Source: Comamonadaceae bacterium (GTDB lineage Bacteria; Pseudomonadota; Gammaproteobacteria; Burkholderiales; Burkholderiaceae_C). From it: 64,000 nucleotides of DNA. The stretch is taken from NCBI GenBank assembly GCA_015999985.1, contig JAECRA010000008.1, positions 1 to 64,000 of the forward strand. The letters run 5' to 3'. Under the pieces are notes generated by a model. It was not told the origin of the DNA, made no database searches, and saw only the letters and a program-made list of their open reading frames with translations. The translations under genes and the position numbers were made by a program. Positions 100 to 16,137 of this stretch are shown piece by piece (the stretch's first letter is position 1; every line of letters begins with the position of its first letter).

Positions 100-630
100 T
101 CAGGCCGTCAGAGCCATCTTCATTTGTTCCAGGCGGGCTTTTACCGAGGTGTCCAGCACCTCGTCACCCACCGTGACGCGTACGCCACCGATCAGCGCCG
201 GATCGATCTGCACCTGGGCTTGCAGCTTGCGGCCAAAACGCTTTTCGAGCGTAGTAACCAAGCTGTTCAGCTCAGAATCATCGATCGGGAATGCGCTTTG
301 AATCAGTGCGTCCGAACTGCCGCTGACCGCATTGGCCAGATCACGGAACTGGCGTGCCACTTCGGGCAGCGCAGCAAGGCGTGCGTTGTCGATGATGGCG
401 TGCAGGAAATTCGCGCCACGCTCGGGCAACGGATTCTTGAGCACGCCAGTGACGACGTCGAACACCTGACGGGCATTGACCCGAGGATCAGCGGCGAACT
501 GCAGCAGCTCATCGCTGGCCGCCGCGCCCGCCAGCCCATCAAGCCAGGACTGTGTCGCGGCCAGATCGGCACGCGAGACCTGGAACAGGGCTTCGGCGTA
601 GGGTCTTGCAATGGTGGCGAGTTCTGCCAT
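100..630 (-). CDS. atpH: ATP synthase F1 subunit delta
   Basis: A 176-residue protein of the OSCP/delta family, the usual length. It begins [16 protein letters not shown], the conserved first helix that contacts the N termini of alpha subunits, and ends with the family's typical [10 protein letters not shown]-x-x-R-L-E segment (about 150-168). Delta forms the stator connection between the F1 head and the b subunits. The gene lies between atpF (30 bp upstream) and atpA (56 bp downstream) in a canonical operon. Nothing unusual was seen. Confidence 0.97.
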
Positions 631-660
631 AGACGTTTTCCTTTGGACGAGCTCTGAGGA

Positions 661-1131
661 TCAGAGCTCGGTCTTCAGGCGTGTCAGCAGATCGGCATGG
701 ATAGTCGGATTGACTTCCTTGCGGAGAATCTGCTCGGCGCCTTTAACGGCCAAAACAGCCACTTGCTCGCGCAAAGCCTCACGGGCCCGCACCACCTGTT
801 GCTCGGCATCGGCCTGGGCAGCAGCAACGATCTTGCTGGCTTCCTCATTGGCTCGAGCCTTGGCTTCTTCGATGATGTGCTGCGCACGGCGTTCGGCGTC
901 AGCCAAACGTGCCGAAGTCTCATTGCGCGAACTGGCCAACTCCTGCTCGACGCGCGAATTGGCGGCGGCGAGTTCGGTTTTGGCTTTGTCGGCGGCAGCG
1001 AGGCCGTCGGCGATTTTCTGAGCCCGCTCGTCCAGTGCCTTCGTGATCGGTGGCCACACGAATTTCATCGTGAACCAAACCAGGATCGCGAAGACAACGG
1101 CCTGCAGGAACAGGGTCGCGTTGATATTCAC
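661..1131 (-). CDS. atpF: ATP synthase Fo subunit b
   Basis: A 156-residue protein with one N-terminal membrane span (about residues 5-25, [19 protein letters not shown]) followed by a long charged helix rich in Ala, Glu, Lys and Arg. That is the peripheral stalk architecture: membrane anchor plus coiled-coil dimerisation region. The length equals that of typical b subunits. It sits between atpE and atpH on the same strand. It holds the F1 head static relative to subunit a in the inner membrane. Confidence 0.97.
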
Positions 1132-1166
1132 GGTTCGACTCCTTTCAGTCTAGAAAGGCTAGCCGC

Positions 1167-1466
<300 letters not shown>

Positions 1467-1491
1467 CTAGATCACAAGACCAGACACGGAC

Positions 1492-2370
1492 TCAGTGAGC
1501 GTCGTGCGACTGACCCACGTAAATCAGCGTCAGCATCATGAAGATGAACGCCTGCAGCGTAATGATCAGGATGTGGAAGATTGCCCACACAGAACCCGCA
1601 ATCACGTGCCCGATACCCAGCCAGAAACCGCCCGTGAGGGGGTTGAATTGCCAGGCCCATACGCCGCCCATCAAGGCGATCAACATGAAGACGAGTTCGC
1701 CGGCAAACATGTTGCCGAACAATCGCATGCCGTGCGAGACGGTTTTGGCGACATATTCGATGATCTGCATCAACAGGTTGATGGGCCACAGCACAGGGTG
1801 CGCACCAAAAGGCGCCGTCACCAGCTCATGAGACCAGCCGCCCAGGCCTTTGATCTTGAGGTTGTAGAAAAGACACACCACCAGCACGCTCAGGGACAAG
1901 CCCAGCGTAGTGGAAAGATCCGCAGTAGGGACCACGCGATGATATGCATGGCTATCGCCGACAGCTGCCTGATAGCCCAAAGGCAACAGATCTACTGGCA
2001 GCAGATCCATGGCGTTCATCATGAAAATCCAGAAGAACACCGTCAATGCCAGAGGAGACACCAGCTTGCGGCTCTTGGCGTTGTGAATCACGCCTTTGGC
2101 CTGGTTTTCCACCAGCTCAGCCAGGATTTCCACCGCCGCCTGGAAGCGCCCAGGCACACCAGAAGTGGCCTTGCGAGCAGCCAGCCACAAGAGCCAACAA
2201 CCCACGACACCCAGAAGAACAGACCAGAACACCGAGTCCGCGTTGAACAGGCTGAAGTCGATGATCGACTTCTGCTTCACGGGCTCGAGATTGAAATTTA
2301 ACTGCAAGTGTTGCAGGTGATGCTGGATATATTCACCAGCAGTCTGCCCTTGCGCGCCTTCAGCAGCCAT
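1492..2370 (-). CDS. atpB: ATP synthase Fo subunit a
   Basis: A 292-residue multi-spanning membrane protein. The family signature around the essential stator arginine is seen as H-G-M-R-L-F-G-N with Arg216. About five to six hydrophobic segments follow a roughly 45-residue N-terminal extension ([18 protein letters not shown]...), which is common in betaproteobacteria. Subunit a supplies the two proton half-channels next to the c-ring. It lies 21 bp after atpI and 76 bp before atpE on the same strand. Confidence 0.97.
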
Positions 2371-2391
2371 ACGTTACCACTTATCCAAAGG

Positions 2392-2907
2392 TCAGTTCAT
2401 CGGCACAGTTGACCGGCGTTTCACCGACATCAACCACATAGCCGCCCAAGCGGCCTTGATAGTCACCACAAATCCGGCCAGCAAAGCCAGCCATTGCACT
2501 TGCGCCAAGATCTTTGGCGCCGCCAGCAACAAAGCCAGCGTCAATACAATTTTGATCCCCTCCCACACCATCAGCGCCGTCAAGGCACTTGCAGCATTGG
2601 ATTCGATTCGCATCCGGCGAGACACCATGCGGGCAAACAGCACCGCGGGCAACCACGCAGCCAAGACGCCATACCCAGCGGACCAAACCACGGACAGGGC
2701 ACCCTTGGACACAAACCAGGCCACCACCACAACCATCAGACCCAACCCCGCCTGAACCCAGACCACTGGCCAGGGAGACAAAGGAGGATGCTCAGCACGC
2801 CATTGGCGAGCTTCTTCGGCACTCAGAGGCTTGAAATCCTCCGGGGTGACTCCATCTGCATTTTCTGCAGGCAGGGGCCGCGCCTTGACGGGTGCTATTG
2901 TGACCAT
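2392..2907 (-). CDS. atpI: ATP synthase subunit I (AtpI-like assembly factor)
   Basis: A membrane protein of 171 residues from the ATG at 2907 (MVTIAPVKARP...). An N-terminal soluble part of about 45 residues ends in L-S-P-W-P-V-V and is followed by four hydrophobic segments. AtpI helps c-ring assembly and is not part of the finished enzyme. Longer starts are possible in the same frame: GTG at 2952 and TTG at 2964; none of the three has an ideal ribosome-binding site. I prefer 2907 because the peptide after it resembles other comamonad AtpI starts, from memory. First gene of the atp operon. Confidence 0.85.
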   Translation of the reverse strand: MVTIAPVKARPLPAENADGVTPEDFKPLSAEEARQWRAEHPPLSPWPVVWVQAGLGLMVVVVAWFVSKGALSVVWSAGYGVLAAWLPAVLFARMVSRRMRIESNAASALTALMVWEGIKIVLTLALLLAAPKILAQVQWLALLAGFVVTIKAAWAAMWLMSVKRRSTVPMN

Positions 2908-2964
2908 TTCCGCTTTCGAGCAAATGACAGCCGATTTCTTGCGGTTACCCACAATTGACTGCAA

Positions 2965-3382
2965 TCTTCCGCTGCGACTGCAAAGCCTCTTATTATAGGG
3001 TTAGTCCGAGGGTTATCCGTCGGTTTCCTGAAAAACGGTTAACTTGCCGCAACACTTGGGCTTGAGCCCAGCGGGTAGAGAGTGCGTTATCGATTCAAAC
3101 TCCCCTCTGCAAGAGCTTTAGCCATGCCCAGTGATCGTCCCTCCCATTCACCAGAACTCTCACGCCATCTCTATATAGGGAGCTCCATTTGGAGAGCACC
3201 ATTTTTGAGCGAGGCGACACCAATTCGAGGCATTGCGCGGGTAAGGACCAGCCTGGGCGCATGGTCAGCATCCGCAATTGGCGGCATGAGGCCATTTGGG
3301 GCGACACACTGTAAGACAATCGTCGTGCAGCTCAGCCTGCCATCCGCAGCTTGAGCCATTCTATCCTTCACGAAAGAAAGAC
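2965..3382. other. Divergent intergenic region between atpI and the DUF493 gene
   Basis: About 420 bp without a convincing gene. Short open frames on both strands lack ribosome-binding sites and recognisable protein features. The region must hold the promoters for the leftward atp operon and the rightward DUF493-lipB-lipA group. Apart from the TATAAT element annotated separately, I see no clear control site. Confidence 0.6.
2992..2997 (-). promoter_or_regulatory. Putative -10 box of the atp operon promoter
   Basis: The reverse strand carries a perfect TATAAT here, 85 bp upstream of the preferred atpI start. At a spacing of 16-18 bp the -35 position shows no good match to TTGACA, so the assignment rests on the -10 element and its position at the head of the operon. 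Confidence 0.4.
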
Positions 3383-3727
3383 ATGACCAATCCTTCGTCC
3401 CCACCTCAAGAGAGCACCGGCCCATCAGCGGAGTTGCCACCGGAAGACATCAAACTGACGCCTGAAGCGCGCGAGTCGCTCATCGAATACCCGAGTGCAT
3501 TCCCCATCAAAGTGGTGGGCGTCAATGAGAATGGCTTCGTGCACGCCGTCACACATATTGCCAAACAATTTGATCCGGCTTTCGACGCCACTACTATAGA
3601 ACTCCGTGAAAGCGGCGGCGGCAAATATTTGGGCGTCACCATCACGGTCACCGCGACAAGCCGGGACCAACTTGATGAGCTATACCGCACATTGTCGACC
3701 CACCCTTCCGCCAAATGGGTGCTGTAA
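3383..3727 (+). CDS. DUF493 (YbeD-like) family protein
   Basis: The product has 114 residues from the ATG at 3383, which follows GAAAGAAAG. A disordered N-terminal part (about 1-35, Pro/Ser/Glu rich) precedes a small alpha/beta domain with F-P-I-K-V-V-G, a second strand G-K-Y-L-G-V-T-I-T-V-T-A, and the C-terminal H-P-S-A-K-W-V-L. This matches DUF493/YbeD proteins, an ACT-like fold of unknown biochemical role that is very often next to lipB. Neighbour lipB starts 77 bp downstream. The function is not known; a link to lipoate metabolism is only suggested by gene order. Confidence 0.88.
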   Translation: MTNPSSPPQESTGPSAELPPEDIKLTPEARESLIEYPSAFPIKVVGVNENGFVHAVTHIAKQFDPAFDATTIELRESGGGKYLGVTITVTATSRDQLDELYRTLSTHPSAKWVL

Positions 3728-3804
3728 GGGGTACTGTGACACCGCATTCGCAATCCCAGAGGCTTGCTCCCTCAGCCGCCAGGCCATAGAACAGGCATTC
3801 ACGC

Positions 3805-4497
3805 ATGAACGTCACCTATCTGGGACGGGTTGAATACACCCCCACATTCGAAGCCATGAAGCAGTTCACGGCTTCGGCTGCCGATGCCCCATCCGACCAA
3901 CTCTGGATTTGCGAGCATCCCGGTGTGTTCACGCTCGGCTTGGCGGGCAAACCCGAACATGTGCTGGCGCCAGGTGACATCCCGGTCGTGCCCACGGACC
4001 GGGGAGGCCAGGTGACCTATCATGGCCCCGGGCAAGTCGTGGCCTACCCACTGATTGACTTGAGATCACGCGCCATCTTTGTCAAGGAATACGTACACCG
4101 TCTGGAAGAAGCAGCGATCCGCACCTTGGCCAGCTTCGGAGTCACAGGGCATCGACTGGCGGGGGCTCCAGGCATTTATGTCCGTCTGGACGACCCTTTC
4201 AGCCACGCCATGCTCACCCAGCGCCCGCAGCATCGCGTTCCGGGCTCTCCCCCGCCGCAACCGGATTTCACCGGCCTGGGGAAAATCGCCGCTCTGGGGA
4301 TCAAGGTGAGCAAACACCGCGCCTACCACGGCCTGTCTCTGAACGTAGGGATGGACCTGGAACCCTTTTCGCGTATCAACCCTTGCGGTTACTCCAGCTT
4401 GACCACCGTAGATCTTTCTACAATTGGCATATCTGTAAGCTGTGACGATGCCGCCCACGAACTGGTCAAGCAGCTCACCCGCCTATTGCAGGGTTAG
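3805..4497 (+). CDS. lipB: Octanoyl-[acyl carrier protein]:protein octanoyltransferase
   Basis: A 230-residue LipB. It moves octanoyl groups from acyl carrier protein to lipoyl domains in the cytosol, the first step of lipoate synthesis. Visible motifs are [12 protein letters not shown] (about 70-81), the lysine-bearing [12 protein letters not shown], and the catalytic cysteine in I-N-P-C-G-Y. Between the two halves there is an insert (about 128-155, D-D-P-F-S-H...P-G-S-P-P-P-Q) that is longer than in enteric LipB. It ends 13 bp before lipA and is probably cotranscribed with it. Confidence 0.96.
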
Positions 4498-4510
4498 AAA
4501 GAAAAGTCTC

Positions 4511-5521
4511 ATGTCCACCACCACCCTCGGCCCCAACGCACCCGTCGTGCGTGAAGCACAGCCCGCTGGCGCCTATGACGCGACAGCCAAGCAAAAGGCG
4601 GGCGCCAAGCTTTCCCGCATTCCGATCAAGGTTCAGAACGACGGTCCAGCGCTGAAAAAACCTGACTGGATCCGCGTCAAGGCGGGTAGCCCGAGCACTC
4701 GCTTCTACGAGATCAAGGATATTTTGCGCAAGAACAATCTCGTGACGGTCTGCGAGGAAGCCAGTTGCCCGAATATCGGCGAGTGCTTCGGGCATGGCAC
4801 GGCCACTTTCATGATCATGGGAGACAAATGCACGCGGCGGTGTCCGTTCTGCGATGTAGGTCACGGCAGGCCTGACCCGCTGGATGCCAATGAGCCGGCT
4901 AATCTGGGCAATACGATTGCGCAACTGCGGCTGAAATATGTCGTGATCACCAGCGTGGACCGTGATGACCTTCGAGACGGCGGCAGCCAGCACTTCGTAG
5001 ACTGCATCCGCTCCACGCGTGAAAAATCACCGGGCACGCAGATCGAAATTCTCACGCCAGACTTCCGTGGCCGTGATGACCGAGCGCTGGAAATCCTGAA
5101 GGCGGCTCCGCCTGATGTGATGAACCATAACCTTGAAACGGTGCCACGCCTGTACAAACAGGCCCGCCCTGGCAGCGACTACGCGTTCTCACTCAATCTT
5201 CTCAAGAAGTTCAAGGCTCTTCACCCATCTGTTCCCACCAAGAGCGGCTTGATGGTGGGCCTTGGAGAAACTGACGAGGAAATTCTGCAGGCGATGCGCG
5301 ACATGCGTGAACATGGCGTGGAAATGCTCACGATTGGGCAGTATCTCGCCCCGTCTTCAGCCCATATTCCGGTGCAGCGCTATGTGCATCCTGACACCTT
5401 CAAGATGTTCGAGGATGAGGCCTACAAAATGGGATTCACTCATGCGGCCGTGGGTGCTATGGTTCGATCGAGCTACCACGCGGACAAACAGGCACAAGCG
5501 GCCGGCCTGCCAACCAACTGA
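4511..5521 (+). CDS. lipA: Lipoyl synthase (radical SAM)
   Basis: A 336-residue radical SAM enzyme that inserts two sulfurs into protein-bound octanoyl groups. Both iron-sulfur sites are visible: the auxiliary cluster motif [12 protein letters not shown] and the radical SAM motif C-T-R-R-C-P-F-C. The C-terminal R-S-S-Y-H-A-D supplies the conserved serine ligand region. The start is the ATG at 4511 ([11 protein letters not shown]), not the frame's earlier ATG inside lipB, because the protein from 4511 aligns in length with the family and clears the lipB stop. Its N-terminal 50 residues are longer than in E. coli. Confidence 0.96.
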
Positions 5522-6061
5522 GCAAGGCTGACGCGGGCCATTAAACAGCCGCGGCAAACCGCCGCCTTGAACCGCCGTCTTAGCTGTGGCATTGCCGGCG
5601 CTGAATTCGCTACTGCTCACCTTCGGTATCGAGGCCAGCACAAGCTGACGAACTGCCGTTTTGAAGTCACGATGGCGCGCTTGAACTTGATCGCACCAGC
5701 GGTTGCAGACCTGCAACATGTGAGCGGCCTGTCACGCCTTCTCGTTAATGGTTTTCCCTAGCGATTGAAGCGCCTGCCTAGGTGAAACATGGGCTTGCAG
5801 ATGTAGGGCTCATTTAGTTCTAGTATTGAGCATGCAAACGTGGCTGGAAGAGCGTACGATATATCTTTCGTCGCCAAAAAAATCTCTGGCAGGCTCCGTC
5901 GGGTCTGCAGATAGATGGCGGTTAAAAGTTTTCAATCTTCGACAGGTTTGTTATGTTTTGTTGCCAGATTGAATCTTTTGTTTCAGATCGCCTATATACT
6001 AAATTTACCGCGTCACCTTTAACCCCCCGTCTCTCCTGAGACCTCGATCTTCTGACATGCC
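5522..6061. other. Gene-free spacer between lipA and the roadblock cluster
   Basis: About 540 bp with no credible coding frame on either strand. The 3' two thirds is AT-rich compared with the surroundings, which fits a regulatory region for the downstream GTPase/roadblock genes. GC-rich short inverted stretches just after lipA (around 5543-5580) could contribute to termination, but no classical hairpin plus T-run was found. Confidence 0.55.
5995..6000 (+). promoter_or_regulatory. Possible -10 box upstream of the roadblock/GTPase cluster
   Basis: TATACT lies in an AT-rich stretch 62 bp before the first gene of the cluster. A TTGAAT at 5969-5974 is a fair -35 match, but the 20-bp spacing is longer than ideal. 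Position and composition support a promoter; the exact elements are uncertain. Confidence 0.3.
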
Positions 6062-6871
6062 ATGTCTTTCTTGAAGCTCGGATCCCATTCACTCAACGCT
6101 ACCGAAGTAGCGCTGATCCGGATGTTGTTGCGACTTTATGCACACGGGGGAAAATCCAGGTGGACCTATGTGGAAGCTCCGCCTTACGACGTTCTGTTAG
6201 TGGATGATTCCTCTAAGGACGTAGCCCTTCCACAAGAGAGTCCGGACCAGATCGCCAAGCGCGTGTTGCGGCTCACCCGCGACCAGATCGAAGAGGACAG
6301 GAAGGACGCACTTCCTCGGCCGCTGTGCTCCCAGAAGCTGCGTGAATGGCTGGATGGCGTGGAAAGCACTTTGGCTGCGCCCCTTGAAGCGGCTTCGGCG
6401 ACAGAATCTAATACAAGTGAGGCATCTCCGGCAGAGATAGTCACGGTAAAGACAATCCTGGCAACGCCTTTACCAGATGCGCCCGCGCAAGCTCGTGAGG
6501 AATCAGGGCCTGAAGACCATTCCAGCTCGCGTCCCTTTCCTGAAGAGGCGCTCCCCTCAGAGAACGATCCACGCTTCCGGCTTCAACGTTGGCCCCGGCA
6601 AGGCATCTTACGGGGGGACCCCGGGCGCATCCGCATGGCTACCCTTTTGACACGCCGTGCACTTAACTCTCGTGACTTGGTCAATTTGACGGGGTTTTCT
6701 CCTCACGAATGCCAGGTCTTCATGCAAGTGCTGCACGCTTCGAGCTTGCTGCTTCCCTTGCAACCCGTGACAGCTCAAGGCAAGGCTGCCACGACGGCTC
6801 AATCTCCACCCGTGAAGCAAAGTTTCACGGCCAGCCTTATTTCCGGGCTTCGCAAGCGACTTGGCCTCTGA
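6062..6871 (+). CDS. Uncharacterised protein of the roadblock/GTPase cluster, possible winged-helix C-terminal domain
   Basis: I do not recognise a named family. The 269 residues show three parts. Residues 1-103 form a folded-looking N-terminal region with Y-D-V-L-L-V-D-D-S. Residues 104-168 are a low-complexity linker rich in Glu, Ala, Ser and Pro. Residues 171-235 begin F-R-L-Q-R-W-P and contain a helix-turn-helix-like stretch, T-L-L-T-R-R-A-L-N-S-R-D-L-V-N-L-T-G-F-S, ending in hydrophobic leucines. The tail is basic (L-R-K-R-L-G-L). In actinobacterial conservons a DUF742 winged-helix protein accompanies the roadblock and GTPase; this could be its functional counterpart, which is inference. 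No strong ribosome-binding site was seen at the ATG. The GTPase gene follows after 96 bp. Confidence 0.75.
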   Translation: MSFLKLGSHSLNATEVALIRMLLRLYAHGGKSRWTYVEAPPYDVLLVDDSSKDVALPQESPDQIAKRVLRLTRDQIEEDRKDALPRPLCSQKLREWLDGVESTLAAPLEAASATESNTSEASPAEIVTVKTILATPLPDAPAQAREESGPEDHSSSRPFPEEALPSENDPRFRLQRWPRQGILRGDPGRIRMATLLTRRALNSRDLVNLTGFSPHECQVFMQVLHASSLLLPLQPVTAQGKAATTAQSPPVKQSFTASLISGLRKRLGL

Positions 6872-6967
6872 TCCAGTGACTCAGAGAATTCAGCTGCGCT
6901 TGGCCCTCAGACCAGTCCACGCGAGTGTCTTGATTGACACTGCGCTTTAGTCACTTTTTCGCAATCA

Positions 6968-7504
6968 ATGAACGAATATAAGATTCTTTTCACGGGAATG
7001 ATGGGAGCGGGCAAGACCACCGCCATTGGGGCCGTGAGCGAAACTCCTCCGGTGGTCACCGACGTGGTGAACACCGACAACTCCCACAACAAAAGCCACA
7101 CCACCGTAGGCCTGGATTTTGGCCAGCTCACCTTGCCAAACGGCGACCGGGTGCGCCTGTTCGGCACGCCTGGTCAGGCTCGATTTGATTTTCTATGGAA
7201 AATCCTCGCCAAAAATGCCCTCGGTCTGATCATCCTGGTCGACAACTCAAGTGCTGACCCGATTGCAGACCTGCGCGTGTATCTGAGCGGCTTCGAGGAA
7301 GAACTAAAGCAACTGCCCTGCGTGATCGGTGTAGGCAGATTGCCGACCCACCCTACGCCGGGTCTTGAAGACTATCTGGATGAGTTGGCCGCGCGCAATC
7401 TCATATTGCCGGTTCTGGAGGTGGACGTACGGCAGCGTGCGGACGTCGTCCTGTTGATCGACACGCTGCTTGCACAGCTCGAAGCCAATCTATACGGAGT
7501 TTGA
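6968..7504 (+). CDS. Small Ras-like GTPase of the MglA / COG2229 type
   Basis: A 178-residue single-domain GTP-binding protein. The P-loop is G-M-M-G-A-G-K-T-T (10-18), a candidate switch I threonine is in S-H-T-T-V-G-L-D (43-50), and switch II is F-G-T-P-G-Q (65-70), lacking the usual DxxG aspartate as in other bacterial small GTPases. The region where an N-K-x-D base-specificity motif is expected reads I-G-V-G-R-L-P-T-H (120-128), so G4 is degenerate. The gene overlaps the TTG frame of the first roadblock gene, implying translational coupling. Such GTPases are usually controlled by roadblock/MglB proteins, and three are encoded directly downstream. Substrate process unknown. Confidence 0.9.
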   Translation: MNEYKILFTGMMGAGKTTAIGAVSETPPVVTDVVNTDNSHNKSHTTVGLDFGQLTLPNGDRVRLFGTPGQARFDFLWKILAKNALGLIILVDNSSADPIADLRVYLSGFEEELKQLPCVIGVGRLPTHPTPGLEDYLDELAARNLILPVLEVDVRQRADVVLLIDTLLAQLEANLYGV

Positions 7505-7506
7505 AA

Positions 7507-7899
7507 TTGGGAAAGACGTTTGAATTGCCATCCAGCGCCAAAGCGTTCATCTTGCAAGAGTCAGAGCGTCTACTCCAGGAGATCTCAGGGGTGAGCGCCG
7601 TCGTCGTTGCTACCGTTGATGGCTTTGATGTGGGCTCAGCCATGAAGCACGGAGACCCTACACGTGTGGCTGCCATGGCCAGCTCCATCTTTGCCATCAG
7701 CGGTGTCGTGTCAAGCGAGGCGCATCTGGGCCGCAGCCGAAGCGTGACGATCGATACAGACCAGGGATTCGTGATTGTCCACAGCATCTATCGTGACGAT
7801 GCAGACCTCGTGATCAGCGTCATCGCTGGGGAAGACGCGATTCTTGGTCAGGTGGCCTACCAAGTCGCGCAGTTTGCCAGAAACCTGGCGGCCGCATGA
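7507..7899 (+). CDS. Roadblock/LC7 domain protein 1
   Basis: A 130-residue roadblock/LC7 protein. The core reads L-L-Q-E-I-S-G-V-S-A-V-V-V-A-T-V-D-G-F-D-V, typical of the fold's first strands, and is followed by a helix with A-A-M-A-S-S-I-F-A-I and the strand F-V-I-V-H-S-I. I chose the TTG at 7507 because GGAG at 7496-7499 is then 7 bp away; the in-frame TTG at 7501 would be too close. The gene starts within 3 bp of the GTPase stop. Roadblock proteins act as GTPase regulators or dimeric scaffolds, so this is a likely partner of the neighbouring GTPase. Confidence 0.88.
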   Translation: MGKTFELPSSAKAFILQESERLLQEISGVSAVVVATVDGFDVGSAMKHGDPTRVAAMASSIFAISGVVSSEAHLGRSRSVTIDTDQGFVIVHSIYRDDADLVISVIAGEDAILGQVAYQVAQFARNLAAA

Positions 7900-8261
7900 A
7901 GGAAGCGCTTTTGCAGCAGGCCTTGGAAACCATGGCAAGCATGCCTGGTGTCGACGGTTGCGCCTTGGTGGAAATCGATGCTGGCATGGTCTGGGGCCAC
8001 GCTGGCGCCATCGACGAAGTGCACACCTTTGCCGAAGCTGCCACAGACTACTGGCGCCTGTACAACCGACTCGCCCCTCAATTCGACACGCTGGGAAGTC
8101 TCAGAGCATCCGTCATGATCCACAAGAAGGGGCGCCTCACCTTGCTGCCTTGTGGCAAGGGCATGATGCTTCTCGCATTGACTGGTCACCACTCAAGCAC
8201 TGACTGGAGTCAATGGCAAAAGCTGACCAGAGAGTTGGCGGTGCTGATGGAAAACCGCTAA
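7896..8261 (+). CDS. Roadblock/LC7-like protein 2 (diverged)
   Basis: A 121-residue protein whose ATG overlaps the stop of roadblock 1 by 4 bp (ATGA). The order helix, G-V-D-G-C-A-L-V-E-I-D-A-G-M-V-W, helix, R-A-S-V-M-I-H-K-K-G-R-L-T-L-L-P-C, strand G-M-M-L-L-A-L is that of a roadblock fold, but sequence identity to the other two copies is low. Tryptophans at 33, 53 and near the C terminus are unusual. The immediate overlap indicates balanced co-production with roadblock 1, perhaps as a heterodimer; this is inference. Confidence 0.75.
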   Translation: MKEALLQQALETMASMPGVDGCALVEIDAGMVWGHAGAIDEVHTFAEAATDYWRLYNRLAPQFDTLGSLRASVMIHKKGRLTLLPCGKGMMLLALTGHHSSTDWSQWQKLTRELAVLMENR

Positions 8262-8298
8262 CTCCCACAAACATAAACCTCAGAGCTTTACCCGTGAA

Positions 8299-8326
8299 CT
8301 GAGCGACGACATGTCGCGCGGCTCAT
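8299..8326 (+). terminator. Stem-loop between roadblock genes 2 and 3
   Basis: An imperfect inverted repeat (GAGC ... GCTC flanking the palindrome CGACATGTCG at 8307-8316) lies in the 94-bp gap before roadblock gene 3. There is only a short T-rich run after it (CATTCTTACC), so it could be a weak attenuator or an mRNA processing or stability site that sets a different level for the last gene. Confidence 0.3.
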
Positions 8327-8355
8327 TCTTACCTAACCAATTGGAGTATTAATAC

Positions 8356-8715
8356 ATGGCAAATATCAAGCAAACCCTTGATAGCTTGATGGAACTTGAT
8401 GGAGCGTTGTGCGCCGCCGTAGTGGACTCAACCAGCGGCATGATGCTTGGTTCCATCGGCACTGGCGTAGATCTTGAGATTGCGGCCGCTGGCAACACCG
8501 AAGTGGTCCGCGCCAAGGTCAAGACGATGCGCGCGCTAGGCCTGAACGATGTGATCGACGACATGCTGATCACTCTCGGCAAGCAGTACCACATCATCCG
8601 CCCATCATCACGCAAGGAAGGCGTCTTCATCTACTACGTACTCGACAAGGGTCGCGCCAACCTGGCCATGGCTCGCCGCAAAGCGCAGGACGTGGATAAG
8701 GAAATGAATTTCTAA
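8356..8715 (+). CDS. Roadblock/LC7 domain protein 3
   Basis: A 119-residue roadblock-type protein, MANIKQTLDSLMELDGALCAAVVDSTSGMMLG..., with central helix V-V-R-A-K-V-K-T-M-R-A-L-G-L and strand Y-H-I-I-R-P-S. The sequence T-T-G-G-A-G ends 9 bp before the ATG and gives a good ribosome-binding site. Separation from the upstream genes by 94 bp and a stem-loop suggests a distinct expression level. Betaproteobacteria carry many stand-alone proteins of this type, mostly uncharacterised. It is probably part of the same GTPase module. Confidence 0.87.
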   Translation: MANIKQTLDSLMELDGALCAAVVDSTSGMMLGSIGTGVDLEIAAAGNTEVVRAKVKTMRALGLNDVIDDMLITLGKQYHIIRPSSRKEGVFIYYVLDKGRANLAMARRKAQDVDKEMNF

Positions 8716-8784
8716 AATCCAAGGTAAAGAGGCTGCGGACTCAGCGGTCCAGGCGACAGAAGCTACGCAGTGCGCATGAGCCCA

Positions 8785-9948
8785 TTACGCATAGATGCCT
8801 TCGCCTGCCGACACGGCCTCCGCTATGCGGCCGAGATGCTCAAATCGATCCCCCAGGCGGCGCTCAATACTCAAGAGGCGCTTAACCTGATGAGATAGGG
8901 CTAACTCTTCGGTCATGCCTATTCCGCCGTGAATTTGTACAGCATGCTCGCCCACCAGGCGGCATGCTGTACTTGTTTGTGCTTTACATGCAGATAACAA
9001 CTGGCGACGGCGACGCGCGTGGGCATCGCGTGCCGGCCCGAATTGATCTGCTGCAAACCTTGCCACCGAGCGTGTCAATTCCACCTGCGTAAACATGTCC
9101 ACGAGGCGGTGCGAAATCACCTGAAAACTCGAGAGCCGTTGACCAAACTGGTGCCTCGTTCGGGCGTAGGCGCAAGTGGAATCCAGCACAGACTTCAGCG
9201 TACCCACAGATTCAACACAAGCCAGTGCCAAAAGCAAGTCGTGCGCAGCTTCAATGGCCGGATAGGCGCGCCCATCTGATCCCAGTCGGGCTGCGGCGGG
9301 GACCACGACCCCGTCCAACACGATATCGACACAAGGCTCGCCGCAAATCCCTTCATGGCGCGCAAAGTGCACACCGGCTGAACCTGCTTCCACAATGAAC
9401 AGCGATAGGCCTTCTGCATCTCCGCTCTCGTGACCAGTGCGCGCAGATACCAGCCAGCCGTCGGCCGAATCGCCAAATGGAACCGCGCACTTGGTGCCGT
9501 CCAGACGGTAGCCGCCGCCCTCGCTCTGCGCTCGTGTTCCGACGCAACGCAGGTCATAACCAGCGCCATGCTCGGCATGGGCGAGCAGCATCAGAGCACT
9601 CCCCTCTATCAAGGAAGGCAACCAATGCCCACGTTGTGTGCGATCGCCCTGCGTCAACAGCAGTTGCATCGCTGCCAAAGCTTCCTGATAGGGCTCTGTG
9701 ACGAACTGCTGACCCATGGCCTCCACGATCGGCAGGGCATCAGCCACCTCATAGCCTAGTCCCCCGTCGGACTCAGGCAACAGCACGCCAAGCCAACCCA
9801 TGTCCGCAAAGCGCGCCCACAGCGCACGGTCCAACGGAGCGATGGAACTCCTTTGGATGCGCAGATGTCGGGCAAAGCCACATTGCTCCGCCAGAAAGCG
9901 GGCCGCACTGTCATACAGCGCTAGATTGTCCTGGGTCTCAGTCTCCAC
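8785..9948 (-). CDS. Acyl-CoA dehydrogenase, PimD-like small subunit
   Basis: A 387-residue flavoprotein dehydrogenase. The middle domain shows A-H-A-E-H-G-A-G-Y-D and the C-terminal helical domain R-T-R-H-Q-F-G-Q-R-L-S-S-F-Q-V-I-S-H and Q-I-H-G-G-I-G-M-T-E-E, the standard FAD and substrate region. I chose the GTG at 9948 because AGGAG lies 7 bp upstream. It is the last gene of the leftward catabolic operon, next to a PimC-like dehydrogenase (10161-11336). Adjacent divergent pairs like this often form heteromeric dehydrogenases acting on dicarboxyl- or ring-derived CoA esters; that role is inferred. A small mobile repeat separates the two genes. Confidence 0.9.
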   Translation of the reverse strand: METETQDNLALYDSAARFLAEQCGFARHLRIQRSSIAPLDRALWARFADMGWLGVLLPESDGGLGYEVADALPIVEAMGQQFVTEPYQEALAAMQLLLTQGDRTQRGHWLPSLIEGSALMLLAHAEHGAGYDLRCVGTRAQSEGGGYRLDGTKCAVPFGDSADGWLVSARTGHESGDAEGLSLFIVEAGSAGVHFARHEGICGEPCVDIVLDGVVVPAAARLGSDGRAYPAIEAAHDLLLALACVESVGTLKSVLDSTCAYARTRHQFGQRLSSFQVISHRLVDMFTQVELTRSVARFAADQFGPARDAHARRRRQLLSACKAQTSTACRLVGEHAVQIHGGIGMTEELALSHQVKRLLSIERRLGDRFEHLGRIAEAVSAGEGIYA

Positions 9949-9986
9949 CTGTTGTCTCCTCACCTATACGATTGAGTCAGCCTGCA

Positions 9987-10164
9987 CTAGGGCGTGTCAT
10001 CAATTAAACCCCCCACGCGCTGATTCGCCCTGAGGATGGATACGCGAAGGCAGGCGCAGGCCGTAGTGATCTACGGCCAAGGCTGCCGACAAAGTAGACG
10101 CCGCAGGGCGAGCCAGCCCGAAGGGTTGCCAAGCCATGGGGGGTTAATTGATGACACGCCCTAG
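9987..10164. mobile_element. MITE-like element with IS5-type ends
   Basis: Two nearly perfect inverted repeats face each other: CTAGGGCGTGTCATCAATTA at 9987-10006, continuing into AACCCCCCA, and its complement ending in CTAG at 10161-10164. The right arm lacks one A compared with the left. Each end carries CTAG, which fits the YTAR target site duplicated by IS5-group elements. The 178-bp unit has no transposase; the inner part is GC-rich and can itself fold (GGCCGTAG ... CTACGGCC near 10060-10080). Its right CTAG contains the TAG stop of the neighbouring dehydrogenase gene, so the insertion left that reading frame intact. Confidence 0.75.
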
Positions 10165-11336
10165 AGTCCTAGCGCGAACTTGGCGATGATGTTGCGCTGC
10201 ACCTCATTGGAGCCTCCATAGATGGAGAGCTTGCGCCAGTTCAAGTACTGCCGCAGCAGTGCCGCCGGCGGAGGCAAGAGGCCTCCAACGTCGCGAGCTT
10301 CTGCGCCGGGTTGATAAGGACCCAGCGCTTCTACCAGCAACGCCGACAGGTTTTGCGCGATCTCCGTACCTCGAATCTTCAAGATCGACGGCTCAACGCC
10401 TATCCCGACGCCTGCTTGAGCGGCTGCAATCAAGCGCAGTGTGGTTCGCTCCAATGCCAGGAGATCCACCTCTGCCGCTGCAATACGTTCAGCGAAGCGC
10501 GGGTCCTGCAGCAAGCACCTCCCCCGCATGTCACGCTGTGCCGCCAACCGTTTGAGCAGGGCGAGCTCCCGCAGCGATCGGCCAATTTTTCCTGCATTGA
10601 AGCGTTCATGGCCAAGCAAGGCCTTGGCATAAGTCCACCCCTGATGAAGCTCACCCACCACATTGGCAAGCGGCACACGCACTTGATCGAAAAAGACTTC
10701 GTTGACCTCGTGCGTGCCATCCAGCAAGATCAGAGGCCGAACCTTGATACCTGGGGTATCCATGTCGAGCAACACAAAGGAAATGCCCTCTTGCGGCTTG
10801 GCCGCAGGGTCCGTACGAACCAGACAGAACATGCGGTTAGCATAGTGGGCATAGGTCGTCCACGTCTTCTGGCCGTCAATGATCAGGTCATTGCCATCGA
10901 TGACCCCCCGCGTTCTGAGGGAGGCCAGATCAGAACCAGAACCGGGCTCCGAATATCCCTGGCACCACCAGTCATCGCTGTTCAGGATGCGCGGCAAGAA
11001 AAACGACTGTTGCTCTGGCGAGCCGTGTTTCATCAATACGGGGGCGAGCATCTTGGGGCCGAAGGCAAAGACCTCCGGTGCGCCCGCCAACCAGCATTCT
11101 TCTTCAAACATATAGACCTGCTGAGGCGTCCAGCCCGTACCGCCATGAGCCACCGGCCAGCCTGGTGCCAGCCACCCCTTGGCGTTCAAGGTCTTCTGCC
11201 ATCCGACCAAGTCCTCCTTGGTCAGCAGCTCATGCTCCAGCACCTTGCTGCGCAATTGCGCCGAGAGCGATTCGCTGAGAAATTTCCGTACTTCGGAGCG
11301 AAATTGCAACTCGCCCGCTTTATCCAAAATAGCCAT
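10161..11336 (-). CDS. Acyl-CoA dehydrogenase, PimC-like large subunit
   Basis: A 391-residue acyl-CoA dehydrogenase. It closely follows the pimeloyl-CoA dehydrogenase large-subunit pattern: G-W-L-A-P-G-W-P-V-A-H-G-G-T-G-W, W-W-C-Q-G-Y-S-E-P-G-S-G-S-D-L-A-S-L, D-G-Q-K-T-W-T-T and L-D-G-T-H-E-V-N-E-V-F-F. The C terminus has S-I-Y-G-G-S-N-E-V-Q-R-N-I-I-A-K. It would oxidise a CoA thioester to its 2-enoyl form, passing electrons to ETF. The Bug protein gene lies 12 bp upstream. Its stop codon coincides with the end of the MITE-like element. Confidence 0.93.
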   Translation of the reverse strand: MAILDKAGELQFRSEVRKFLSESLSAQLRSKVLEHELLTKEDLVGWQKTLNAKGWLAPGWPVAHGGTGWTPQQVYMFEEECWLAGAPEVFAFGPKMLAPVLMKHGSPEQQSFFLPRILNSDDWWCQGYSEPGSGSDLASLRTRGVIDGNDLIIDGQKTWTTYAHYANRMFCLVRTDPAAKPQEGISFVLLDMDTPGIKVRPLILLDGTHEVNEVFFDQVRVPLANVVGELHQGWTYAKALLGHERFNAGKIGRSLRELALLKRLAAQRDMRGRCLLQDPRFAERIAAAEVDLLALERTTLRLIAAAQAGVGIGVEPSILKIRGTEIAQNLSALLVEALGPYQPGAEARDVGGLLPPPAALLRQYLNWRKLSIYGGSNEVQRNIIAKFALGL

Positions 11337-11348
11337 ATCGCGGCGCGA

Positions 11349-12329
11349 TCAATCAATTGAAATATTGTGTTCGCGGATCAGGGCGCCCCAACGGTCGCGA
11401 TCGGCTTTGACGTAGTCATCGACCTGGGCCGCATCCATGGGTGGCATCATGAGAATGCCGGCTTTGGTGAACGTGGCCCTGAATTTCTCGTCGCGCACAA
11501 AGCGCGCACTTGCTTGTTGGATTGCGGTGACCACTTCGGCTGGCGTACCTGCTGGCACGGCCAAGCCAAGCCAGCTGGCGGCGTGGAACTTCGAGTACCC
11601 AGCTTCTTGCAACGTGGGGGTATCCGGCAACCATTGAATGCGTTTATCCATGGGCACAGCCAGAGCCTTCAGCTTGCCGGCCTGAATGAATGGCAAGGCC
11701 CCAGGCAGCACGTCCACATACAACTGCACATCATTGCTCATGAGCGCAGTGAGCGCGGGCACGCTTCCTTTGTAAGGCACTTCGGTCATGCGTATGCCGA
11801 GTTCCGATTCAATTTTCTTACCCGTCAGGTAAGTCACATTGCCCTGGCCCAGGGAGGCGAAGTTGAGTTTTCCTTCGTTGGCTTTTCCAAATGCCGCCAG
11901 GCCACGCAGATCCGTGATGGGCGTCTGAAGATTGGTGACCACCACGGTCGGCACCTCGGCGACGATCGTGATCACGCGCAACTCCCGGATGGGGTCGTAG
12001 TTCAGCTTCTTGGTCACCAGCGGGGTCACGGTCATGTTCCCGTTGGAAGCCATCAACAGGGTATAGCCATCGGCAGGCGAGCGGGCAGCAGCGCCGGTGC
12101 CCACCATGGCTCCGGCGCCAGCGCGGTTATCCACGATGATGGGTTGCTTGAGTTCGCGGCCAATGCCGTCTGCCAGCGCGCGCGCCAGGTTGTCGGTAAT
12201 ACCCCCGGGGGCGTAAGGCACGATCAGCTTGATCGGCTTGTCTGGATAGTTCGCGAGGGCCGCCGTGGCCAGCAGCATCGCGCCGACAGCTGTGGCAGCG
12301 GCGCGCAAGACTTGAGTCAGTGCATGCAT
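11349..12329 (-). CDS. Bug/TctC family periplasmic solute-binding protein
   Basis: A 326-residue extracytoplasmic receptor. A signal peptide (about 1-26, L-L-A-T-A-A-L-A followed by NYPDKPIKLIVPY) leads into the canonical Bug start, with P-Y-A-P-G-G and D-N-R-A-G-A-G-A. Bug proteins bind carboxylates such as di- and tricarboxylates, nicotinate or aromatic acids and are very numerous in Burkholderiales. A good AGGAGA site precedes the ATG. No TctA/TctB membrane partners are nearby, which is common for orphan Bug genes. Its place inside a CoA-ester degradation operon suggests it captures that pathway's acid substrate. Confidence 0.93.
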   Translation of the reverse strand: MHALTQVLRAAATAVGAMLLATAALANYPDKPIKLIVPYAPGGITDNLARALADGIGRELKQPIIVDNRAGAGAMVGTGAAARSPADGYTLLMASNGNMTVTPLVTKKLNYDPIRELRVITIVAEVPTVVVTNLQTPITDLRGLAAFGKANEGKLNFASLGQGNVTYLTGKKIESELGIRMTEVPYKGSVPALTALMSNDVQLYVDVLPGALPFIQAGKLKALAVPMDKRIQWLPDTPTLQEAGYSKFHAASWLGLAVPAGTPAEVVTAIQQASARFVRDEKFRATFTKAGILMMPPMDAAQVDDYVKADRDRWGALIREHNISID

Positions 12330-12391
12330 ATCGTCTCCTTGGTTGTTTTGCAGTGAGAAAATCCAGGGCGTGCAGACCGATGTGTTCGCCC

Positions 12392-13174
12392 CTATCGTCC
12401 AGAAAAACGCGGCTTGCGTTTTTCCTGGAATGCGGTGACACCCTCGGCGAAGTCTTCTGTTCCGAAGACCACCGCCTGGGCCATGCTCTCCTTGAGCAGG
12501 AATTCGCCGAAGCTGTCTTTGTAGGCGCCCGCCATGAGCGCCCGCGCCAGACCGAACGAGACCGTTGGCCCCATGGCAATGCGCTGTGCCAGGGCCAAGG
12601 CCTGTTGCAAAAATCCTTCGCGGGGCAGAACCCTGCTCACCAACCCAAGCGACAGCGCCTCCTGTGCTTCGATGCGCCGATTGGTCAATAGGAGATCATT
12701 GGCCTGGACACGGCCCACCGTGCGCGGCAAGTTGTAGAGCAAACCCATATCGGGCAGCACCCCTACGTTGGCAAACCCGGCCATGAAGTAGGCGTCTTCG
12801 GCCGCCACCACCACGTCGCCGAACAAAGACAGAGACAGCCCCGCACCCACAGCAGGGCCATTGACTGCGGTCACGATGGGCTTCTCGCATTCGGCCAACA
12901 GCCGAATACTGGCGTGCGTCTTGGCCATTCGACGGCGCACACTCACCGTTCGGCGATCGTCCTGCATGGTGCGCAGGTCGCCGCCTGCGCAGAACACGCC
13001 TTCACTGCCGGTCAGCAGCAAGCACTTCAGGCTGTCATCGTCCGCAAAACGCCGCGCCTGATCGAGCAGCGCCTGTTTCATCTCGGCTCCAATGGCGTTG
13101 CGCACTTCTGGCATGCACATCTCCAGCACCAGAACCCCGTCTGCTACTTCGCTGCGGATAGCTTCCTTGTCCAT
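12392..13174 (-). CDS. Enoyl-CoA hydratase/isomerase family protein
   Basis: A 260-residue crotonase-fold protein. The first oxyanion-hole segment is F-C-A-G-G-D-L-R and the second is G-P-A-V-G-A-G-L-S-L. Where classical hydratases carry Glu in a P-E-x-x-L-G motif, this protein has F-M-A-G-F-A-N-V-G-V-L-P-D-M-G, so the first catalytic Glu is missing while an Asp follows later. Isomerase, hydrolase or diverged hydratase chemistry is therefore possible. It ends with the family tail F-Q-E-K-R-K-P-R-F. Only 3 bp separate it from the upstream SDR gene. Confidence 0.9.
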   Translation of the reverse strand: MDKEAIRSEVADGVLVLEMCMPEVRNAIGAEMKQALLDQARRFADDDSLKCLLLTGSEGVFCAGGDLRTMQDDRRTVSVRRRMAKTHASIRLLAECEKPIVTAVNGPAVGAGLSLSLFGDVVVAAEDAYFMAGFANVGVLPDMGLLYNLPRTVGRVQANDLLLTNRRIEAQEALSLGLVSRVLPREGFLQQALALAQRIAMGPTVSFGLARALMAGAYKDSFGEFLLKESMAQAVVFGTEDFAEGVTAFQEKRKPRFSGR

Positions 13175-13177
13175 GGA

Positions 13178-13993
13178 TCACACTCCCGCGTTCGATGGGG
13201 CCGAGACGGTCTCTTCCACTGCATGATTTCGCGCACCGAGCAACGAGATGCCACCGTCTACCGGTATCAACGCCCCCGTGATGTAACTCGCATCGTCAGA
13301 ACCGAGGAACAAGGCCATGGCCGCGATGTCTTGCAATGCGCCCAGCCTGCGCAAGGGCACGCGGCTGGCCATACTGGCCCGCGCACTGTCAGAGACCAAC
13401 TTGGCCATGCCCGTCGTACCTTCTATAGGGCCCGGCACAATGGAATTGACGCGAATGCCCTGCTCACCCCACTCCAGCGCCAGAACACGCATGATCTGGT
13501 CCATGCCGGCCTTGGCAGCGCAGGCGTGGACCTGCATGGGGGCGGGGTTGTAAGACTGCGGTGCCGAGATATTGATAAGGGAAGCGCCAGGTTTTCTCAG
13601 GAACGGGTGCGAGGCATGCAGAACATGAAAGGTGCCGACCAAATCAATGTCCACGACCGCCTTGAAGCCATTGGGTGAAAGCTTCAGCGCGGAGGCCAGG
13701 AAATTTCCCGCCGCGCCGGACACCAGAACGTCAATGTCACCCCATTGAGCGTGCACGGCGCCCAGCACTTCTTGTACGCGAGCGTAGTCGCGGACATCAC
13801 CGGTATGCCCCGAGACTTGCCCGCCATGCCGCGCCAGTTGCTCCTGCGCGGAGGCCACCCGCTCCGCGTTGCGGCTCATGACGGCCACGCGCGCGCCGGC
13901 TGCGGCATAGGCGTCTGCGATGCCCAGGTTGATTCCATTGGTGCCGCCGGACACAAACACCGTTTGGCCACTGAAGTCGTAGCGAGATTTCAT
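13178..13993 (-). CDS. SDR oxidoreductase, 2,4-dienoyl-CoA reductase-like
   Basis: A 271-residue Rossmann-fold SDR. The cofactor loop is S-G-G-T-N-G-I-N-L-G and the next strand ends in S-R-N, compatible with NADPH. It carries G-A-A-G-N-F and V-H-A-C-A-A-K-A-G-M, the pattern of 2,4-dienoyl-CoA reductases, in which the usual Y-x-x-x-K is modified. Such enzymes remove double bonds during breakdown of unsaturated acyl-CoAs. I chose the ATG at 13993, with AGGAGA 7 bp upstream; it overlaps the stop of the preceding synthetase gene as ATGA. Confidence 0.87.
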   Translation of the reverse strand: MKSRYDFSGQTVFVSGGTNGINLGIADAYAAAGARVAVMSRNAERVASAQEQLARHGGQVSGHTGDVRDYARVQEVLGAVHAQWGDIDVLVSGAAGNFLASALKLSPNGFKAVVDIDLVGTFHVLHASHPFLRKPGASLINISAPQSYNPAPMQVHACAAKAGMDQIMRVLALEWGEQGIRVNSIVPGPIEGTTGMAKLVSDSARASMASRVPLRRLGALQDIAAMALFLGSDDASYITGALIPVDGGISLLGARNHAVEETVSAPSNAGV

Positions 13994-16137
13994 TTTCCGG
14001 TCTCCTTGCCATGGTTTGAGCATGTCTGCACCAATGCATCCAGCGCGTAGGCGCCCTGGCCGAGAGGCAAGGCCAGCACCGGATTCAGATCGATACTCTC
14101 CAACTGATCGCCGGCGTGGTGGGCAAACACAGACAGACGTGACAGCATCCGAGCCAGGGCGGGCACATCCACAGGTGGACGATTGCGCAAGCCGTTCAGC
14201 ACGCTCACGGAACGGATGGACCGCACCATGCGTTCAGCTTCCTCTTCATTGAACGGGCATCTTCGCAAAACAACGTCATTCAACAATTCAACAAAGATGC
14301 CGCCAAGTCCGAACACGGCCATGGGGCCAAATACCGGATCGCGTTGAATCCCCATCAGGCATTCGACGCCCCCTTGCATCTGCTTGGCCACCAGTACGCC
14401 TTCAATGAACGCATTCGGCACCTGAGCCTTGGCGCGCGACAAAAGCAGATCAAAACCTGAACGGACAGCCTCTTCATCGCCCACGCCTATCAGCACGCCG
14501 CCGATCTCCGTCTTGTGTGCGATATCGGGCGAGACGATCTTGAGCACCACAGGCCAACCGAATGACCGCGCAGCATGAACCGCCGATTCAGCATCTGCAC
14601 AGAGCTGTTCAGGCGCAATGTCCACGCCGTGCCCTGCCAGCAGTTGCTTGGCCTGAGCCTCCGACATCGGCCCACTGGGCAGCGTGAGCACTTCTGGTTC
14701 GGGAAGCCAGGACGAGTTCGGTCGCGCAAACGCCTCCCCCAAGCGTCCCATGGCGGCAATCGCACGGGCGGCTCGCACCGGGTCCTCGAGCACCGCGAGA
14801 CCCGCATCATCGTAGGCGCGCTGGCGTTCTTGCGACATGGTCCCGGAGACCACAAACAGCCGGTCAGGGTGCTCCTTCCTTAGCTCCGCCAGATCTTCCA
14901 TCAGGCGATCGGCTACTGGTGGAACACCTGCCAGTTGCGCATAAAAACTAAGCAGTGACGTGTAGCCACCCTCTTCCACCATCGCGCGGGTGAAGCTGCG
15001 CACCAAGGTCGGATCATTCAGCGCCTGCGCCGTGCAATCGACAGGATTGACTGGCGACGCGTAGGGCAGCAGCTCAAGCAGCCGCTTCTGAGTGGCTTGC
15101 GGCATGGGCGGCATAGCCATGCCTTCATCTTCTGCGATGTCACTGATCAACACGCCGACGCCGCCACTGATGCTGGCCACGCCCAGGGTATTGCGAACCG
15201 GGTAGGTCTTGAGGGCGCCCATGTAGGCCACGTCCAGCAATTCATCGACCGAACGGACACGGACCACCCCAAACTCGCGAAGCACCGCGTCCGTGACGAC
15301 ATCGTTACCGGCGATCGAAGCGGTATGCGACTGCGCAGCACGATGCCCGATGGCGCTTCGTCCGACCTTGAGCATGACCACCGGCTTGCGTGCGCGTTTC
15401 GCAGCTGCCAAGGCATCTATAAAGACGTCGGCCCGGGTCACGCCCTCCACGTACGCCGCAATGACGTCGACTTCCGGGTCTTGTGCATACCAGCGGATGA
15501 TCTCGCCCACGGTGATGTCGGCCTGGTTTCCAGTGGTCACACACATCGGGGTCCCCATGCCCCTGTCGCGTGCCAGGCACACCAGATGAGAACCGAAGGC
15601 CCCTGACTGGCTGACCACGCCAATGCGTCCGGCCCGAGGCCAACCGCTTTCGAATGCCGTGGTAAAGGTTGCATACCAGCCGACATTGGCATTGAAAAGC
15701 CCCAGGCAGTTAGGGCCCAGCATGCGCATGCCATGGCGGCGTGCGGTGTCGACCAGTTGTTGCTGCAGCGCAGCCCCCTCGCCTGGGACTTCCGCGAAGC
15801 CGGAACTCAACACCACCGCTGCCCGCACCCCTTTTGCGCCAAGAGCTTCCATCGTCTCGAGCACCTGGGGTGCCGGAACCGCCACGATGGCCGCATCTGG
15901 CACGTGGGGCAGCGCTGCCACTGAATCGTAGGAGCGCAATCCCTGGACCTCTGCGCGTGCCGGGTTGATAGGATAGATCTCTCCCTGATAGCCCGCGCGA
16001 AGCATCCAGTTGATGGGCCTGCCTCCGATGCGTCCTGGGTCTGAAGAAGCCCCCACCACGGCGACACTGGCAGGCGCCATCAAGGCGAGCAGGCCTGGAT
16101 CACGAAGCGCTGCCCCGTCCATTGCGCGTGCGTTCAT
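13990..16137 (-). CDS. NDP-forming acyl-CoA synthetase, fused alpha-beta
   Basis: A 715-residue fusion. The N-terminal CoA-binding Rossmann domain (about 20-145; I-N-P-A-R-A-E-V-Q-G, M-L-G-P-N-C-L-G) is followed by the ligase domain with the phosphohistidine region Q-S-H-T-A-S-I-A-G (about 270). From about residue 485 there is an ATP-grasp domain with V-V-L-K-I-V-S-P-D-I-A-H-K-T-E-I-G-G-V. Such enzymes reversibly couple acyl-CoA cleavage to ATP or GTP formation. In this operon it may activate the substrate or recover energy from the last CoA ester. Its start overlaps the stop of the upstream SDR gene by 4 bp. Confidence 0.92.
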   Translation of the reverse strand: MNARAMDGAALRDPGLLALMAPASVAVVGASSDPGRIGGRPINWMLRAGYQGEIYPINPARAEVQGLRSYDSVAALPHVPDAAIVAVPAPQVLETMEALGAKGVRAAVVLSSGFAEVPGEGAALQQQLVDTARRHGMRMLGPNCLGLFNANVGWYATFTTAFESGWPRAGRIGVVSQSGAFGSHLVCLARDRGMGTPMCVTTGNQADITVGEIIRWYAQDPEVDVIAAYVEGVTRADVFIDALAAAKRARKPVVMLKVGRSAIGHRAAQSHTASIAGNDVVTDAVLREFGVVRVRSVDELLDVAYMGALKTYPVRNTLGVASISGGVGVLISDIAEDEGMAMPPMPQATQKRLLELLPYASPVNPVDCTAQALNDPTLVRSFTRAMVEEGGYTSLLSFYAQLAGVPPVADRLMEDLAELRKEHPDRLFVVSGTMSQERQRAYDDAGLAVLEDPVRAARAIAAMGRLGEAFARPNSSWLPEPEVLTLPSGPMSEAQAKQLLAGHGVDIAPEQLCADAESAVHAARSFGWPVVLKIVSPDIAHKTEIGGVLIGVGDEEAVRSGFDLLLSRAKAQVPNAFIEGVLVAKQMQGGVECLMGIQRDPVFGPMAVFGLGGIFVELLNDVVLRRCPFNEEEAERMVRSIRSVSVLNGLRNRPPVDVPALARMLSRLSVFAHHAGDQLESIDLNPVLALPLGQGAYALDALVQTCSNHGKETGK

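Follow-up and report, generated by a model that had tools for sequence, protein, structure and literature searches.

A Group 3 MglA-type GTPase module with three linked roadblock-family genes and a companion protein with a conserved amphipathic tail in an Ottowia-like Comamonadaceae bacterium

We analysed a stretch of 64,000 nucleotides from a Comamonadaceae bacterium (GenBank assembly GCA_015999985.1, contig JAECRA010000008.1, positions 1 to 64,000), hereafter the window, in which five adjacent genes at 6062-8715, here named A to E, encode a companion protein, a small GTPase of the MglA family and three proteins assigned to the roadblock/LC7 (MglB-like) family. Judged by its layout and motifs, this module is a Group 3 MglA system, a class described in 2014 from beta- and gamma-proteobacterial genomes (Wuichet and Sogaard-Andersen, PMC4316618). 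It is a real and conserved module of a known but uncharacterised type; in the open-access literature searched, we found no paper that gives Group 3 systems a biochemical function. New here are the amphipathic ending of protein A, the Pfam-unrecognised E family together with its co-occurrence with the GTPase, and the links of E to BLUF domains, by fusion or in a shared operon.

As published, a Group 3 system consists of an unknown protein, an MglA homologue and typically one or two MglB proteins, without a kinase, and the unknown protein was given a receiver-like N-terminus and a winged-helix C-terminus by Phyre2 (PMC4316618). The module in the window shares with this class an unknown protein with conserved ends and a variable linker, MglA, MglB and the lack of a kinase. 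All five open reading frames (ORFs) are intact, lie on the plus strand and stand in the order first described, with 4-bp overlaps between B and C and between C and D, and gaps of 96 bp between A and B and 94 bp between D and E; the tightly spaced run of adjacent genes noted in an earlier, sequence-only reading of this DNA was found at the same positions. Gene B (6968-7504, plus strand; 178 aa) matches GTPase-type models in Pfam. Among 23 aligned relatives, the window copy included, GxxGxGKT, TTVG and VDVR are present in all 23, [NT]KxD in none, and GTPGQ in 22, the exception being locus L022 with GSPGQ. These are the features published for Group 3 GTPases (PMC4316618), namely, GTPGQ in G3, a Thr in G2 in place of the Arg finger, a G4 without the NKxD lysine, and an Asp-x-Arg in G5, which reads Asp-Val-Arg here and Asp-Ala-Arg in the published description; in addition, a roadblock gene lies within four genes of the GTPase, overlapping it by 4 bp. 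We also considered B as a Group 1 MglA of the Myxococcus type and rejected this assignment, since that group has an Arg finger next to the Thr of G2, and TVPGQ in G3, where B has TTVG and GTPGQ. However, the module differs from the published Group 3 layout in having three linked roadblock-family genes instead of one or two MglB genes, the third of which (E) is not recognised by Pfam, and a conserved amphipathic tail of the kind found in A is not mentioned in the consulted portion of the description (PMC4316618).

The arrangement is conserved in related genomes. We compared 31 loci, consisting of the window, 29 loci retrieved by scanning named genomes for B, and a further copy on contig C77 of the same genome. 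Genes A, B and C were recognisable in all 31 loci (the A of locus L053 being identified separately from the main locus comparison), D in 20 and a linked E in 26, and the complete set A to E was present in 15. One of the five loci without a linked E (L042) is interrupted by a contig end, and D, which is optional, is absent from all eight Variovorax loci, both Massilia loci, L038 and L058. Frameshifts were seen in C of L038 and in B of L060. The gene order was found repeatedly in Comamonadaceae and Massilia, so the proposal that a betaproteobacterium carries a self-contained module of GTPase and roadblocks without a kinase withstood the check that its author had suggested, the conservation of gene order in relatives. 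Compared with Ottowia thiooxydans, A, B, C and D are under purifying selection (dN/dS 0.21, 0.07, 0.015 and 0.03, respectively). Because the order recurs in Comamonadaceae and Massilia and A to D are under purifying selection, the module is more than a chance arrangement. In a wider sample covering 250 genomes of the order, 36 matched the profile of the GTPase, eight of these with weak scores (E 3.6e-5 to 6.2e-4), and 12 matched that of E. In the sampled family f45 the GTPase was found in 62 of the 71 genomes.

The host is assigned to the Ottowia-like Comamonadaceae; its window GTPase is 98% identical to that of O. thiooxydans DSM 14619, and the DNA at 3501-8336 aligns with that species at 90.5%. 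A second complete module A to E is present in the same genome on contig C77 (locus L062:8256-10819, minus strand), beside a divergent dnaE-like gene, and its GTPase is 72% identical to that of the window. In a tree containing relatives of B only, the window copy is sister to the O. thiooxydans copy (support 100/99) and is placed apart from the remaining Ottowia-type copies, as an outsider to them, at moderate support values (86/86 and 90/92); therefore, it is an old extra copy instead of a recent duplicate. Some Ottowia relatives (L149, L150, L151 and L156) harbor a second type of GTPase module, in which the GTPase is about 40% identical to B and is accompanied by an A-like protein with a GFFKSLLDKLF-type tail and a C-type roadblock; genome G027 has two GTPase genes close together. 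In the record of O. beijingensis, the GTPase gene (L060:8001-8530, the same gene as in L017) is broken into two frames, through either error or decay.

Gene A (6062-6871, plus strand; 269 aa), the Group 3 companion protein, matches no Pfam model at E <= 1 and no NCBIfam model. Its N-terminal half is variable and is followed by a proline/alanine-rich linker, by a C-terminal domain of winged-helix-like type at approximately residues 174-225 and, past a linker, by a short, basic and amphipathic end. In an alignment of 34 rows, conserved N- and C-terminal regions are separated by a variable linker and the C-terminus is winged-helix-like, as in the Group 3 description; the first protein had also been read as two-domained from the sequence alone, and this holds. 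A profile search of the PDB matched the winged helix of SmtB (E=3.9e-5), and the C-terminal domain is found as well in divergent relatives with N-terminal parts of other lengths. For the analysis of the tail, the model of A was rebuilt without it to avoid circularity. A basic amphipathic C-terminal end was then present in 50 of the 51 distinct relatives, while of 733 control ORFs, mostly spurious frames, 88 had one; a narrower tail motif was present in 44 of the 51 compared with 1 of the 733. When the 11 tails that had served as the source of the motif were left out, the numbers were 39/40 for the amphipathic end and 34/40 for the motif, and among 297 called flank genes, 17 passed the amphipathicity test and none carried the motif. 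C-terminal endings of this kind are similar to the helices by which MinD and FtsA are targeted to the membrane. The conserved amphipathic tail suggests that A may attach peripherally to the membrane and serve as a membrane-bound adaptor.

The three small proteins downstream of the GTPase differ in how readily they are recognised. Gene C (7501-7899, plus strand; 132 aa, TTG start) encodes a canonical roadblock/LC7 protein, scoring 33.6 bits against Pfam Robl_LC7 (cut-off 23), and the PDB matches of its profile are roadblock structures, including cvnB5. All 28 relatives of C keep the Asp-Gly pair that MglB proteins in Groups 2-5 are reported to have (PMC4316618), and C is presumed to be the GTPase-activating protein (GAP) for B. 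Gene D (7896-8261, plus strand; 121 aa), in which GM replaces DG, encodes a second roadblock-like protein that scores slightly under the same cut-off (21.8 bits), 15 of the 20 members of its family matching Robl_LC7 at E <= 0.1. Gene E (8356-8715, plus strand; 119 aa) encodes a third, divergent but very conserved protein, the window copy of which matches no Pfam model at E <= 1; the direct likeness of its family to Robl_LC7 is weak, being seen in 4 of 23 members at a best E of 0.0026, and its profile matched 7yh1 in the PDB (E=0.0039). The model of D, however, matches 22 of the 23 proteins in the E family but none of 460 shuffled sequences, and that of E matches 19 of the 20 proteins in the D family but only one of 400 shuffled sequences. 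When the alignments were compared by hhalign, no similarity was found between C and D or between C and E (probability 0.1), while D and E showed a weak one (45%, E=2.2e-4). The E family is thus linked to Robl_LC7 indirectly, through the D model, which supports the reading of E as a divergent roadblock related to D, as had been guessed in the sequence-only reading.

The E family accompanies the GTPase closely. In a genus sample of 29 genomes, E is present in 15, which are exactly the 15 with a close GTPase, and the two genomes with only the 40%-identical type of GTPase (G018 and G027) are without E; the chance of such a match is about 1e-8 if the genomes are treated as independent, the real figure being larger through shared descent. 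In five of the 15 (G010, G014, G015, G019 and G021), the sole detected E is not linked to the module. In family f45, E was found in 33 of the 71 genomes, that is, in 33 of the 62 GTPase-positive and 0 of the nine GTPase-negative ones. A third copy of E in the genome under study is likewise unlinked (C18:23021-23377; locus L114:9022-9381, plus strand), as are copies in ten further loci of the genus Ottowia, and most of these lie beside a gene for a small protein resembling a ribbon-helix-helix regulator and beside genes that were read by eye as proA/holA-like. At the O. thiooxydans locus, the alignment with the window stops between D and E, and D is followed there by a terminator-like repeat and two IS630-type transposase-like ORFs, recognised by eye (L033:9300-10520); this may account for the loss of E at this site. 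In Snodgrassella, a Group 3 mgl locus is reported, and each genome has three mglB genes, of which one is unlinked (PMC11112851), whereas in the window all three roadblock-family genes are linked, with the unlinked E copy and the second full module elsewhere in the genome. E may plausibly correspond to mglB-3 of Snodgrassella, as both occur unlinked and are of similar length.

E also occurs joined to other domains. In G073, a genome of the same taxonomic order, a 534-residue ORF (L120:7503-9107, plus strand) combines a BLUF domain (E=8.6e-19) with a C-terminal E domain. On a plasmid of Agarilytica rhodophyticola (L232:6001-8072, plus strand), the order is E, a BLUF protein (8.1e-23), a GTPase (3.7e-33 by the B model) and a roadblock (3e-14 by the C model). 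The ending of this BLUF protein resembles the C-terminus of A and carries the tail motif; its profile scores for the C-terminal domain of A are not significant (E 0.11-0.32 among 329 proteins, 0.0031 among 12), so the presence of an A-type C-terminal domain in it is suggestive only. A plasmid of Acinetobacter wuhouensis carries a GTPase, C, an A-like gene and E in this order, read across the start of the record. Relatives of E were found on 28 of 72,556 plasmid records, including those of Streptomyces, Hymenobacter and Deinococcus, where they are annotated as hypothetical proteins or have no feature, whereas 50,697 phage records contained none. At four loci an E-type domain ends a longer ORF, namely, L127:8504-9880 (minus strand), L128:8106-9386 (plus strand), L125:8350-9357 (minus strand) and L118:8225-9073 (plus strand); the N-terminal parts in the first three match no Pfam family, and chemoreceptor-type genes lie near the fourth. 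A Streptomyces plasmid (L234:4233-6375, plus strand) encodes an E-like protein with an altered middle, a DUF4388/HTH-type regulator, a roadblock and E.

In positions 1-20000 of the window, 16 other genes of at least 120 aa were called, 15 of which match metabolic, ATP-synthase or DUF493 families (ATP synthase, lipoate, DUF493, fatty-acid/CoA) and one of which has no match at E <= 1e-5. There is no kinase or chemoreceptor among these 16 genes, as had been noted from the sequence. Across the 31 loci no signalling gene recurs in the flanks, and the only neighbour that recurs at many of them is a divergent gene, dnaE by eye, present at 11 loci. Between D and E, a hairpin (8294-8326, plus strand) appears to be a degenerate form of the terminator-like repeat that follows D in O. 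thiooxydans. Its fold of -14.6 kcal/mol (z -1.81) was equalled in stability by 9 of 200 shuffled sequences, and it was not flagged by the terminator scanner, its L033 counterpart having been recognised by eye. The scan of 5500-8900 gave a single terminator-like match, on the minus strand inside gene A, which is below the chance mean of 2.8, and no sigma-70-like promoter was found in the same interval.

We consider it probable that the module is a Group 3 MglA-type switch in which B is the GTPase, C its GAP, D and E are modulators or signal couplers, and A is a companion placed at the membrane. In this scheme, B would be switched on and off with its bound nucleotide, C would accelerate its GTP hydrolysis, and D and E, as related non-canonical roadblocks, would either tune C or connect a signal with the switch, with E as an exchangeable partner that is at times unlinked or fused to a sensor. 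With respect to the direction of signalling, we infer that the N-terminal half of A takes in or relays an input and that its winged-helix-like domain contacts the partners, such that A gates the GTPase, while its basic amphipathic C-terminus would place the complex at the membrane, where the GTP state of B would be read locally, at the pole or the envelope. The sequence-only reading had proposed a roadblock heterodimer as the regulator and A as the effector; the former is possible, D and E being related, and the latter is one of two readings, as A may equally be the input or the anchor. More tentatively, and with somewhat less than even confidence, we suggest that the switch is membrane-tethered and sensor-swappable, A anchoring the GTPase through its amphipathic helix and E serving as a plug-in signal coupler, which in some bacteria is joined to BLUF so that blue light would set the GTPase state.

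Several observations weigh against this account. The tail of A could be a protein-binding motif instead of a membrane anchor, and the receiver-like N-terminus of the 2014 description gained no support from pairwise profile comparisons with two response regulators, in which A and unrelated controls alike gave a probability of 0.1. The C model matches 0 of the 20 D and 0 of the 23 E members, and the E model matches 7 of the 28 C members compared with 2 of 560 shuffled sequences; as the profile similarity is nil between C and D and weak between C and E, the common kinship of the three rests on Robl_LC7. The co-occurrence counts ignore shared descent, and in the order-wide sample two of the 12 genomes with E (G179 and G281) are without a detected GTPase; in both of them, E forms the C-terminal end of a longer ORF.

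The winged helix of A may also be read as that of a DNA-binding regulator gated by the GTPase, in which case the module would control gene expression. The C-terminal domain of A does resemble ArsR/SmtB winged helices, gene regulation was proposed from the Phyre2 folds by the authors of the 2014 study (PMC4316618), and a Streptomyces conservon system regulates specialized metabolism according to the conservon literature. However, winged helices are used for protein-protein contacts as well, and a basic amphipathic C-terminus, as it occurs in 50 of 51 relatives of A, is unexpected in a soluble repressor; no target promoter or binding site was found, none having been looked for. We regard a transcriptional switch as unlikely. 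By analogy with MglA and MglB of Myxococcus, the GTPase might instead place or activate type IV pili, that is, act as a polarity or pilus regulator, an output which we find doubtful. In Myxococcus, too, one GTPase is served by more than one roadblock-domain regulator, RomY stimulating the GAP activity of MglB on MglA (PMC9481161), a membrane-binding tail of A would fit a polar role, and in Snodgrassella the substitution G78R in the unlinked mglB-3 changed how colonies spread on soft agar and how the bacteria competed in the gut (PMC11112851). On the other hand, the Myxococcus GTPase belongs to Group 1, has an intrinsic Arg finger and a guanine nucleotide exchange factor, RomR/RomX, and lacks an A-type companion (PMC9481161); E is no more than a plausible counterpart of mglB-3, and none of the 16 flank genes is a pilus gene. 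The PilQ secretin scored above the cut-off in 25 of the 29 genomes of the genus sample, including genomes without the module such as G001, G002, G016, G023 and G024. Since PilQ is present with or without the module, pili do not track it, and the PilQ profile neither supports nor excludes a pilus output.

The sequence-only reading had likened the module to an actinobacterial conservon, and in this it did not stand; the nearest class is Group 3 MglA, the layout of which was already described in 2014 (PMC4316618). Conservons, also called AGPS (CvnA-D; PMC13343842, PMC8510531), likewise combine a GTPase, a roadblock and a winged-helix-like protein in one operon, and the PDB matches of C include Streptomyces cvnB5, which would fit a true conservon that has lost its sensor kinase. 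However, the module has no histidine kinase, no DUF742 and another gene order, A bears an amphipathic tail, a kinase is absent from all flanks examined, and the layout matches Group 3, which makes a lost-kinase conservon highly improbable. Conservon membership as such was rejected, there being no CvnA kinase among the 16 flank genes and no match of A to DUF742, or to any other Pfam family, at E <= 1.

Group 3 systems are found in many beta- and gamma-proteobacteria, including most of the sampled family f45. The E family extends beyond the proteobacteria, to plasmids of Streptomyces, Deinococcus and Hymenobacter; therefore, an E profile would re-annotate proteins that are now called hypothetical.

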